DNA of 22,375 nucleotides. Origin: Gammaproteobacteria bacterium. Lineage in GTDB: Bacteria > Pseudomonadota > Gammaproteobacteria > Xanthomonadales > Xanthomonadaceae. Positions within the stretch are counted from its first letter, which is position 1. Every line of letters starts with the position of its first letter. The translations under genes and the position numbers were made by a program. This document shows, piece after piece, positions 23-14,649 of this stretch. The notes below the pieces were generated by a model, which was given only the letters and a program-made list of their open reading frames with translations, was not told where the DNA came from and made no database searches. The stretch lies in assembly GCA_025360985.1 (NCBI GenBank), contig JANYBA010000382.1, positions 1 to 22,375 on the forward strand. The letters are read 5' to 3'.

Positions 23-1859
23 CACCCCTATTTCCGCGGAGCTCGCTGCCCCAGGCGAATACGAGTGCGTGAGCACCGAGGCGCAACTCTCGGCCTGGAT
101 CGCTCGCCTGCGCGCTGCCGACGAATTCGCCTTCGACAGCGAGACCGATTCGCTCGACCCGATGCGCGCCAACCTGGTCGGCCTGAGCTTTTGCATCGAG
201 CCCCGGCAAGCCTGCTATATCCCGCTCGCCCACGACTATCCCGGCGTACCGACGCAGCTGCCACGCGCCGCGACGCTGGCGGCACTCAAATCCTTGCTTG
301 AGGATTCGGGCAAGGCCAAGGTCGGCCAACACGGCAAGTACGACCTGCACATCCTGCGCCGCCATGGCGTCGAGGTCCGTGGCTATCGCGACGACACCAT
401 GCTCGAGTCGTTCGTGCTCGAGGCCGGCCTGCAGCGCCACGACATGGACTCGCTGGCCTTGCGTCACCTCGGCTACACGACCCTCAAGTACGAGGACGGC
501 GCCGGCAAGGGTGCCCAGCAGATCCTGTTCTCGCAGGTCGCGCTCGACGACGCGACCAAGTACGCGGCTGAGGATGCCGACGTGACCTTGCGCCTGCACC
601 GCGTGCTGTCGGAAAAGCTCGGCAGGTTTCCCGGCCTGGAGCGGGTCTATCGCGAGATCGAGATGCCGTTGGTGCCGGTGCTCGAGCGCATGGAGGCGAA
701 CGGGGTCAGCATCGACGTGGCCGAATTGCGCCGGCAAAGCGTTGATTTGTCGCAACGGATGCTCGCCGCGCAGCAACGCGCCACCGAACTGGCCGGGCGC
801 ACCTTCAACCTCGATTCGCCCAAGCAGATCGGCGCGCTCCTGTTCGAAGAGTTGAAATTGCCGGCTCTGGTCAAGACACCAACCGGCGCGCCCTCGACCA
901 ACGAAGAAGCGCTGGAGGCGATCGCCGACCAGCACGAACTGCCGCGCCTGATCCTCGATTACCGCGGCCTGGCCAAGCTGCGCAGCACCTACACGGACAA
1001 GCTGCCGGAGATGGTCAATCCGGTCACCGGCCGCGTCCACACCAGCTACCACCAGGCCGGCGCCGCCACCGGCCGCCTGAGTTCGAACGACCCCAACCTG
1101 CAGAACATCCCGATCCGCACCGAGGACGGCCGGCGCATCCGCCGCGCCTTCGTCGCGCCGCCGGGGCGCGTGCTGGTGGCCTGCGACTATTCGCAGATCG
1201 AGCTGAGGATCATGGCGCACCTGTCCGGAGACGCGGGGCTGCTCAAGGCCTTCGGCAGCGGTGAAGACGTGCACCGCGCGACGGCGGCGGAAGTATTCGG
1301 CGTGCCCTTGAAAGACGTGAGCGGCGACCAGCGCCGCGCCGCCAAGGCGATCAATTTCGGCCTCATGTACGGCATGAGCGCCTTCGGCCTCGCACGCCAG
1401 CTTGGCATCGGCCGCGGCGAGGCGCAGGACTACATCGCGCTCTACTTCGCGCGCTACCCGGGCGTGCGCGAGTACATGGACCGCACCCGCGCCCAGGCGC
1501 GCGAAGCCGGTTACGTCGAGACGCTGTTTGGTCGCCGGCTGACGCTGCAGGAAATCCATTCGCGCAACCAGGCCCAGCGCGCCGGCGCCGAGCGCGCGGC
1601 GATCAACGCGCCGATGCAGGGCACCGCCGCCGACATCATCAAGCGGGCGATGGTCGCGGTCGATGCCTGGCTGCAGCCGCACGCGGCCAAGGCGCTGATG
1701 CTGATGCAGGTCCACGACGAACTGGTGTTCGAGTGCGAAGCGGGCTTTGCCGACACCCTGGTCGCCAACGTACGCGCGCGCATGGAGTCAGCGGCGGAAC
1801 TGCGGGTGCCGCTGGTGGTCGATGTTGGCAGCGGCGCCAACTGGAATGAAGCGCACTGA
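3..1859 (+). CDS. polA: DNA polymerase I, 3'-5' exonuclease and polymerase domains (5' end cut by window edge)
   Basis: DNA polymerase I fills gaps and removes RNA primers during replication and repair. The frame is open from the window edge, so the GTG at 69 is not a convincing start: the residues before it (EYEC, then VSTEAQLSAW) align with the linker that precedes the Klenow domain in E. coli. From the GTG, 596 residues remain, about the Klenow fragment length; the 5'-3' exonuclease domain must lie outside the window. The proofreading residues are visible (FDSETDSLD, KYDLHIL, YAAEDADVTLRLH). Polymerase motif A is CDYSQIELRIMAHLS, the O-helix is RRAAKAINFGLMYGMSAFG with the usual Phe, and motif C is QVHDELVFE. 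It ends in the family's typical VGSGANWNEAH. All catalytic residues are intact. Positions 3-22 encode RDLTPF from a dispersed palindrome, an oddity in the interdomain linker. Confidence 0.96.
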   Translation, partial: RDLTPFSTPISAELAAPGEYECVSTEAQLSAWIARLRAADEFAFDSETDSLDPMRANLVGLSFCIEPRQACYIPLAHDYPGVPTQLPRAATLAALKSLLEDSGKAKVGQHGKYDLHILRRHGVEVRGYRDDTMLESFVLEAGLQRHDMDSLALRHLGYTTLKYEDGAGKGAQQILFSQVALDDATKYAAEDADVTLRLHRVLSEKLGRFPGLERVYREIEMPLVPVLERMEANGVSIDVAELRRQSVDLSQRMLAAQQRATELAGRTFNLDSPKQIGALLFEELKLPALVKTPTGAPSTNEEALEAIADQHELPRLILDYRGLAKLRSTYTDKLPEMVNPVTGRVHTSYHQAGAATGRLSSNDPNLQNIPIRTEDGRRIRRAFVAPPGRVLVACDYSQIELRIMAHLSGDAGLLKAFGSGEDVHRATAAEVFGVPLKDVSGDQRRAAKAINFGLMYGMSAFGLARQLGIGRGEAQDYIALYFARYPGVREYMDRTRAQAREAGYVETLFGRRLTLQEIHSRNQAQRAGAERAAINAPMQGTAADIIKRAMVAVDAWLQPHAAKALMLMQVHDELVFECEAGFADTLVANVRARMESAAELRVPLVVDVGSGANWNEAH

Positions 1860-1976
1860 CAGTCTTCACGCCGTCATAACGGTCTGGATCGGGCAGCTAA
1901 ACGCAGCCTGAATGACGCCGGAAACCATGACTTATGGTTCACGAACTTCTCATGCCCGAGGGGGTCTACTAGCTGC

Positions 1977-2098
1977 GACGGATGCAATGTCCGCCGCGGA
2001 TCGTCTCCCTCCCCTGAGAACGATCCACAGGAGCCAGCTCTCCCCAGCTGGCTCCAAACCCGGCCCCGCAAGCTTCCCCTGGCTTGCGGGGTTTTTTT
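1977..2098 (+). ncRNA. sX13-like small RNA candidate: three stem-loops with CCCC loops
   Basis: Three near-contiguous hairpins each expose four cytosines. SL1 (1998-2026) has arms GGATCGTCTC and GAG-A-ACGATCC with one bulged A and loop CCTCCCCT. SL2 (2030-2055) is a perfect 10-bp stem, GGAGCCAGCT/AGCTGGCTCC, with loop CTCCCC. SL3 (2064-2091) is a perfect 10-bp stem, CCCCGCAAGC/GCTTGCGGGG, with loop TTCCCCTG and seven T residues after it. The 5' end is inferred: TCTACT at 1965-1970 is a weak -10, giving a start near 1977 and a length near 120 nt. From memory, sX13 of Xanthomonas is about 115 nt, lies downstream of polA, and uses C-rich loops to pair with G-rich mRNA leaders; architecture and location match. 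Homology itself has not been tested, and the 5' boundary is uncertain. Confidence 0.72.
2064..2098 (+). terminator. Intrinsic terminator (SL3 of the sRNA candidate)
   Basis: Perfect 10-bp GC-rich stem at 2064-2073/2082-2091 followed directly by seven T residues (2092-2098). It terminates plus-strand transcription, i.e. the sRNA candidate and any polA read-through. On the minus strand there is no T-run after the stem, so it is not an obvious terminator for the convergent hemF. Confidence 0.92.
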
Positions 2099-2113: not shown

Positions 2114-4055
<1,942 letters not shown>

Positions 4056-4059
<4 letters not shown>

Positions 4060-5438
4060 CCGCCGATCGCCTTCGCGCCATCATCCGCGGCTGGCGGGCC
4101 ATCGCCCTGCTCGCGTTCGCCGGTCCGTCCCTGGCGACGCCCGCCGCGGCCGGGGCCGCGGGCCAGCCGCCGCAGCGATTGGTCCTGGCCATCGATGGCG
4201 TGCCTTACGACCTGTTCGCCGAACTGCAGCGCGAGGGCCACTTCGCCGCCTTCCGTCCGGCGGCAAGGATGGTCGCGCCCTTCCCGTCGCTGTCGGATGT
4301 CTCGTTCGCCGCCATCGGTGGCAGCGCGCCGCCGGCCGGATACCAGGTCATGCGTTTCGATCCGGACCGGAACAAGGTGGTCGGCAACACTCTGTTCTCG
4401 CTATCGAGCAAGGCCCACCCGAACATCCCCGCCGACTCCAGCGAGCACAACAGTTGGCACCGCATGATCGGCTACGTCGCCGCCTACCACGTCGCGACCT
4501 ACGACCTGCACCGCATCGGCGCCGAGTTGCTGGCCAGCCAGAAGCCGACCTTCGTCGCCTACCTCGAACAAAGCGACGCGGTCATGCACGTCGAGGGCCG
4601 CGCCGGCGGCACCCGCCTGTTGCTCGAACTCGACCGCTTCCTGCAGCAGTTGCAAACCGAGGTGCGCGCGCGCAGCGGCCGCGGCCTGATGGTGGACATC
4701 GTCTCCGACCACGGTTCGACCATGCAGCGCGGCCGCAACGTGGCGATCGAGTCGGAGCTGCGCCGCTGCGGCAACGAGCGCCGATCGCGCATCGACAACG
4801 ACCGCCAGGTCGCTTTTTCCTACGCCGGCATCATCGGCGCGGTGGCGATCACCGCGCGCCCGGCGCAGGTGGATCCGGTCGCGGCCTGCCTCGCGCCCGT
4901 CGATGGCGTCGACCTGGTCGCCGTCGACCACGGCGACCACGTGCTGGTGCTGGCCGGAGCCGACGCCGCGGAAGTGCGGCTCGCGCCGGGGCCGGAAGAG
5001 GCCTACCTGTACCGGGCGTTGCACGGCGACCCGCTGGGCCTGGCCGCCGGCCGAACGGGCGAGCGGCGCCTGGTCGAACGCGAGCTGTTCCGCGCCACGA
5101 TCGACGCGCCCCGCCCCGATCCCTTGCGCCGGCTGTGGCGCGCCTTCCACGGCGCGGTCGAACAGCCGACGCCGATCCTCGTGTCCCTGGCCGACGGCCG
5201 CGAGGCCGGCAACGAGACGGTGCGCGCGCTGGCGCAACTACGCGGTCGCGCCGGCACCCACGGCTCGATGACGCGACTCGCCTCGCTCGGTGTGATCGCC
5301 TCGAATTGGCGCAATGTCGATGATGTCGATGCCTGGCAGGCACACTGGCGATTGTTCGGACCGGAAACCGACCTCGCCGCGCGCGCCCATGCCCGCGCCT
5401 GGCCCGCCGCCGCCACTGGCAAGATCACGGCGCCGTGA
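4056..5438 (+). CDS. Exported alkaline-phosphatase-superfamily (nucleotide pyrophosphatase/phosphodiesterase-like) protein
   Basis: 460 residues starting with a positively charged stretch and hydrophobic core (RGWRAIALLAFAGPSLATPAAA), a likely Sec signal peptide cleaved near residues 27-36, so probably periplasmic. The metal-dependent phosphatase fold is suggested by its ordered metal-site motifs: LAIDGVPYD (Asp 47), FPSLSDVSF holding a candidate Ser nucleophile (about 78-83), EQSDAVMH (Asp 174, His 178), VSDHGS (Asp 218, His 219) and GTHGSM (His 402). These match the type I phosphodiesterase/alkaline phosphatase arrangement. The substrate is unknown; a phosphodiester, phospholipid head group or sulfate ester are all possible. 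Its ATG overlaps the chorismatase stop, suggesting co-translation, yet one enzyme is cytosolic and the other exported, so the functional link is unclear. The 3' end overlaps xth by 14 bp on the other strand. Confidence 0.75.
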
Positions 5439-14622: not shown

Positions 14623-14649
14623 AGAAAAAGGGATCTGACCCCTTTTTCT
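14623..14649. repeat. Dispersed palindromic repeat, copy 2, likely bidirectional terminator
   Basis: Arms AGAAAAAGGG (14623-14632) and CCCTTTTTCT (14640-14649) pair perfectly around loop ATCTGAC. It begins immediately after the stop of the carbonic anhydrase-like gene and ends just before the aroE stop complement. Both strands show a run of T after the G/C step, so it could end transcription in both directions, although only three G-C pairs stand next to the loop. 22 nt are identical to window positions 1-22. Confidence 0.8.

Follow-up and report, generated by a model that had tools for sequence, protein, structure and literature searches.

The small RNA sX13 of Xanthomonas (Rfam RF02232) is described as a 115-nt RNA that lowers type IV pilus mRNAs, for whose action Hfq is dispensable and whose 5′ region is unstructured and likewise dispensable (PMC3771888). 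Its C-rich loops and the G-rich motifs near the starts of its targets were needed for reporter repression, loop 2 for two of the three regulated reporters; regulation was not regained when loop and target were mutated in a compensatory way, and not all Xanthomonas genes with a 4G motif are regulated by the RNA (PMC3771888). The hfq mRNA, which carries such a motif, is a reported target that does not define the family (PMC3771888).

Other small RNAs share some of these properties. Spot 42 of Escherichia coli and the alpha-r7 sRNAs have polA-adjacent genes like sX13, and the alpha-r7 sRNAs also form three stem-loops with C-rich motifs; Spot 42, unlike sX13, needs Hfq, and the same source reports no sequence similarity of either to sX13 (PMC3771888). 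ErsA of Pseudomonas aeruginosa is likened to sX13 in locus, putative promoter type and twitching phenotype, a comparison of published descriptions (PMC5819304, PMC8575079, PMC7565897, PMC12153292, PMC6804348, PMC12189769, PMC5559785). Unlike sX13, ErsA is described there as having a U-rich single-stranded domain predicted to bind anr, whose activation needs Hfq, whereas its regulation of amrZ does not. No paper treating ErsA and sX13 together was found in the mostly open-access literature searched. RNAIII of Staphylococcus and HPnc5490 of Helicobacter belong to loci and lineages other than that of sX13. Both resemble sX13 in applying C-rich loops to G-rich mRNA sites, a likeness by analogy only (PMC3771888).

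The window, by which we mean the whole 22,375-nt stretch analysed, carries an sX13 locus between polA and hemF (Table 1). It agrees with Xanthomonas sX13 in length, the three C-rich loops, the terminator, the place behind polA and the match to the Rfam model, and differs in a candidate σE-type promoter and in lacking the 4G site at hfq. The nearest relative of the window PolA is that of Arenimonas, with 81% identity. In a tree of 104 PolA sequences the window and 10 other sequences of the genus formed one clade (support 0.90), nested within the family clade (support 0.972). NCBI taxonomy places Arenimonas in Lysobacteraceae, which we take to be the current name of Xanthomonadaceae. On PolA sequence, the host is thus an Arenimonas-like bacterium within this family. 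The preliminary description had held out an extension of the family's range if the organism lay outside Xanthomonadaceae; because the host lies inside, that proviso does not apply to the window, and extension beyond the family is supported by other genomes instead. The 16-nt sequence AAAGGGATCTGACCCC, which we read as a REP-like repeat, is present at positions 1-16 and 14627-14642 and in 19 copies in the genome, where five inverted pairs lie about 20-40 nt apart; one copy sits on the contig edge that cuts polA.

Table 1. Positions of the features at the sX13 locus of the window
Feature	Position	Strand	Description
polA (DNA polymerase I)	69..1859	+	596-aa ORF; Pfam DNA_pol_A 532.9 bits; 5′ end cut by contig start
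Conserved promoter block	1938..1953	+	TTCACGAACTTCTCAT; identical in 11 genus sequences, by eye
Candidate σE-type promoter	1943..1970	+	GAACTT (1943-1948), 16-nt spacer, TCTACT (1965-1970)
Hairpin 0	1975..1997	+	arms 1975-1983 / 1989-1997; loop 1984-1988 GCAAU; one A.C mismatch (1978/1994)
sX13 small RNA, Rfam RF02232 bounds	1986..2098	+	cmscan 69.1 bits, E 3.1e-11, model 1-115 of 115
Hairpin 1	1998..2026	+	10 pairs with a single 1-nt bulge; loop CCUCCCCU at 2008-2015
Hairpin 2	2030..2055	+	10 pairs; loop 2040-2045 CUCCCC
Hairpin 3 = intrinsic terminator	2062..2098	+	stem 2062-2093, 13 pairs; loop 2075-2080 UCCCCU; T7 2092-2098
hemF (coproporphyrinogen III oxidase)	2114..3046	-	310-aa ORF; Pfam Coprogen_oxidas 420.8 bits; convergent with the sRNA

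The covariance-model search that the preliminary description had proposed matched RF02232 over its full length, well above the gathering cut-off of 50 bits, which bears out the identification as sX13 behind polA. No other Rfam family exceeded its own cut-off in the window, and the genome, 81.6% complete, yielded one RF02232 copy and no second. All three successive hairpins with CCCC-bearing loops were found. The claim of 10-bp stems throughout held for hairpins 1 and 2, that of hairpin 3 being longer (Table 1), and the run of seven Ts was found to close the last hairpin as described, the terminator being located independently by a consensus scan at 2062-2093. The stretch 1977-2098 folds with -64.7 kcal/mol against a mean of -38.6 for shuffled sequences (z -7.1), and 0 of 200 shuffles equalled it. 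Three or more hairpin loops with a run of at least three Cs were present in 142 of 150 distinct fetched homologues, a set that includes second copies and doubtful members. By sequence and predicted fold, these three hairpins with C-rich loops represent a true copy of the regulatory RNA known from Xanthomonas. A mechanically called 125-aa ORF spanning the RNA (1912-2289) was rejected; every reading frame across the RNA is interrupted by a stop in at least one of the nine genus sequences compared.

Within the genus, the stems vary under maintained pairing. In an alignment of 11 sequences 93.3% of the cells pair, and two-sided changes occur in 13 of 31 pairs, compared with a shuffled mean of 4.4 and a level reached by 0 of 500 shuffles. 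When partners were slid by one to three columns, pairing fell to 52.4% or less and two-sided changes to at most 2; the count of further pair types was not above that of shuffles (180/500). Variable columns numbered 1 of 22 in loops, 33 of 62 in stems and 18 of 38 at other unpaired positions. Compensatory stem changes around fixed C-loops, which the preliminary description had suggested looking for, are therefore present in the genus, and its contrary pattern of loops losing their Cs while stems drift was not seen.

Across the order, RF02232 matched in 146 of 299 genomes, 84 of them above the cut-off. Among 80 fetched loci around such matches, a polA gene ended within 800 nt upstream in 8/8 from the genus, 26/30 others from the same family, 31/40 from family f12, which we suspect to be Rhodanobacteraceae, and 0/1 each from f4 and f11; contig ends, wider spacing or second copies account for some of those with no near polA. 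Conversely, sX13 follows polA in 79 of the 80 named loci; contig ends cut two of these. One Lysobacter polA locus (L094, around 4780-5400) had no sX13 match downstream, an apparent loss or relocation.

Four RF02232-positive copies had no polA in the fetched flank (L127, L128, L154 and L174). Three of them come from two genomes (L127 and L128 from G225, L174 from G230): one has hemF as its neighbour, one is located elsewhere in that genome, and one follows a frame that looks like the primase DnaG. In f12, three loci of genus g65 (L165, L166 and L170), again with no polA in the fetched flank, carry a shorter RNA with two CCUCCCC-type loops that reached the cut-off of no Rfam family; it is possibly a second C-loop sRNA. 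Other f12 loci, such as L153, L157, L160 and L164, have CACCUCCCUG as the loop of hairpin 1. This sequence resembles the anti-Shine-Dalgarno end of 16S rRNA, which hints at mimicry of a ribosomal site. The C-loops are absent from the fold of L176.

Upstream of these hairpins a fourth one, hairpin 0, was found, and the 5′ end of the Rfam model falls within its loop. The preliminary description had bounded the RNA at 1977 and 2098: the end agrees with Rfam, the start does not, and position 1977 falls in the 5′ arm of this hairpin, which it had not described. GCAA occurs in the loop in 11/11 genus sequences, 99/100 others of the family and 34/39 from f12. Among 64 distinct family sequences 93.1% of the cells pair, compared with 83.3% after shuffling (0/500); two-sided changes affect 7 of 9 pairs, as in 3 of 500 shuffles, and 70 cells, compared with 22.3 (0/500). 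For f12 the figures were 82.9% of cells pairing, 26 two-sided cells compared with 8.6 (0/500), and two-sided changes in 6 of 7 pairs, as in 10 of 500 shuffles, for 34 rows (30 distinct) that remained after the 5 of 39 with no GCAA were dropped, a choice that favours the hairpin. Sliding the partner left 24-38% of cells paired in the family and 32-51% in f12; kinship among sequences can by itself beat shuffles where there is no structure. Within the genus (7 distinct sequences) the single two-sided change was not significant (145/500 shuffles equal). Outside families f1 and f12, 24 of 55 sequences folded at p ≤ 0.05 by shuffling and 31 did not, and GCAA was present in 16 against 4.8 expected, doubtful matches being included among the 55. 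These comparisons suggest a conserved 5′ hairpin that straddles the Rfam 5′ end. The Xanthomonas account calls the region unstructured, and a dispensable 5′ region is at odds with a functional hairpin there (PMC3771888). The 115-nt Xanthomonas form would lack the 5′ arm of hairpin 0, provided that its 5′ end is that of Rfam.

The region preceding hairpin 0 contains a candidate σE-type promoter, which stops 4 nt before the foot of the hairpin. Scored with a matrix derived only from 15 rpoE promoters, it obtained 8.1, a value that 0.5% of 3232 control windows attained. No sX13 region entered the matrix, which is nevertheless not free of our own expectation because the rpoE sites were chosen by a related string. 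Scores above the 99% control level were obtained for 11/11 genus sequences, 23/39 from f12 and 24/100 others of the family, and above the 99.9% level for 1/11, 7/39 and 2/100, respectively. AACTT stands at -42, with a 16-nt spacer, in all 11 genus sequences. The window's -10 element TCTACT is imperfect, and the stricter pattern AACTT-N14..18-TCNNA was present in 1/11 genus sequences and in 1/100 others of the family against 0.57 expected. TTCACGAAC occurs in 11/11 genus sequences, 66/100 others of the family and 0/39 from f12. A longer shared block, searched as TTCACGAACNNTCNAT, gave 0 matches, the window itself included; the pattern was mis-specified and supports no conclusion. In most of the sequences listed from Xanthomonas and Stenotrophomonas, the -35 element at the corresponding position has decayed. 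No match to a σ70-type promoter was found in 1850-2200. High salt, a temperature of 37 °C and minimal medium are reported to raise Xanthomonas sX13, but not H2O2 or 4 °C (PMC3771888), a pattern compatible with stress control and no proof of it. No paper joining Xanthomonas, RpoE, an sRNA and GAACTT was found in the mostly open-access literature searched, and a prior description of the hairpin or promoter is possible.

More distant relatives were sought with R2, an extended model built from 38 sequences of both families that starts 14 nt further upstream, scores the 5′ hairpin as sequence only and does not include polA; its E-values are rough. R2 matched in 203 of 299 genomes of the order and in 39 of 369 class genomes, of which five belong to the order. 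All 34 class-level genomes outside the order were examined. A polA gene ended within 800 nt upstream in 21 of them, at least three C-loops were present in 25, and the string AACTT-N14..18-TC occurred in 18, against 0.34 expected by shuffling; 11 had both near polA and string, and 6 neither. Their promoter score exceeded the 99% level in 25, in a scan that lies mostly upstream of the model and overlaps its first 9-12 positions. Within the order, 21 of the 49 matches outside f1 and f12 were sampled: 13 had a near polA, 18 three C-loops, 13 a promoter score above the 99% level and 15 the string (0.20 expected), of which at least one (L292) looks like chance, and in 4 both polA and string were absent. 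A draw across the phylum gave matches in 14 of 398 genomes; 10 belonged to the order, 1 to the class and 3 to neither, these last near threshold (E 8e-5 to 8e-4). L305 (the same match as L347) and L313 were set aside as false or doubtful, having no credible anatomy, and L329, with no C-loop, and L331, with one, are doubtful. In one genus outside the order, four (L343; G467, family f173) and three (L344; G574) sX13-like matches stand in a row behind polA. sX13 has been said to be exclusive to Xanthomonadaceae (PMC3771888). The R2 matches suggest that divergent relatives exist outside the family, which are better called sX13-like than members of RF02232.

We therefore consider it highly probable that polA and hemF flank a free-standing sX13 gene of an Arenimonas-like bacterium, probably transcribed from a σE-type promoter of its own, with C-loops that would lower translation. 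Another reading, possible though on balance unlikely, accepts the sRNA as Rfam bounds it, gives it an ordinary housekeeping promoter and regards the 5′ inverted repeat as an operator or chance. Xanthomonas sX13 is described as constitutive (PMC3771888), 76 of the 100 other family sequences do not exceed the 99% σE level, and the stricter promoter pattern is as scarce among them as given above, the window's own -10 being imperfect. Against this, the same promoter type recurs at the same place in distant relatives, as in the 25 of 34 genomes outside the order, and covariation in a repeat whose sequence changes is easier to reconcile with pairing in RNA than with a fixed site for a protein. That sX13 is cut from the 3′ end of polA mRNA and has no promoter of its own is improbable: the short same-strand spacing, the σ70 scan and an Rfam 5′ end located in a hairpin loop, where a cut could fall, are in keeping with processing, but AACTT and the 16-nt spacer hold in every genus sequence, the distance to polA differs among relatives, and the RNA is retained in copies away from polA. 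That the locus is only the polA terminator region, its stacked hairpins stopping transcription and protecting the mRNA 3′ end with no regulation, is scarcely credible despite the good intrinsic terminator and an RNA starting 126 nt after the polA stop (1859 to 1986) on the same strand, since termination needs no more than one hairpin, the remaining loops are conserved on covarying stems, a promoter-like block is conserved upstream, the four polA-less copies exist, and the Xanthomonas RNA is an expressed, functional sRNA (PMC3771888).

For the gene with its own σE-type promoter, the following mechanism is proposed, largely by analogy with Xanthomonas, with expression, start site, σE control, targets and repression all inferred. 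The transcript would probably run from near 1975-1977, some 10 nt before the Rfam start, to the T7 terminator that closes it at 2098. Its stems would keep the three C-rich loops exposed, and these would pair with G-rich stretches in the ribosome-binding regions near mRNA start codons and lower translation; the function of the loops is known from Xanthomonas only, and having the same loops argues for the same chemistry here. Hairpin 0 with its GCAA loop may shield the 5′ end, or may be cut in the loop to give the shorter published form.

The hfq target was compared directly. GGGG is absent, by eye, at the hfq start of the window's own genome. Between -40 and +36 of the hfq start, it was found in 17/21 other genomes of the family (one, L220, with a start that is probably wrong), 9/12 of f12, 0/1 of f4 and 0/8 of the genus, where 8 genes of 9 were parsed and the host's own was the one read by eye. 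The hfq 4G motif is common in the two families and absent in Arenimonas, and the target list need not carry over from Xanthomonas for this reason. GGGG was also found at hfq in 0 of 16 genomes first taken as lacking sX13. That set proved wrong, as R2 matches 12 of these genomes at E ≤ 0.001 (G007 doubtfully), and the presence of sX13 therefore does not predict the hfq motif.

A wider proposal, to which we attach even odds, is that sX13 is one branch of an old gammaproteobacterial family of sRNAs that are linked to polA, carry three C-loops and a 5′ hairpin and serve as a σE-driven envelope-stress output, possibly sharing an origin with ErsA of Pseudomonas. Arenimonas would have kept the stress promoter, and Xanthomonas and Stenotrophomonas would have exchanged it for a constitutive promoter, so that the RNA became available for other regulatory uses, while the 5′ end as published would result from processing or from a truncated annotation. 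If this is true, an sRNA known from a plant pathogen would prove to be an ancestral envelope-stress RNA that one lineage has rewired, and RF02232 would need extension both at its 5′ end and in its range. The comparison makes the question directly testable, since it supplies specific candidate loci, a promoter type that they share and a hairpin that had been missing.
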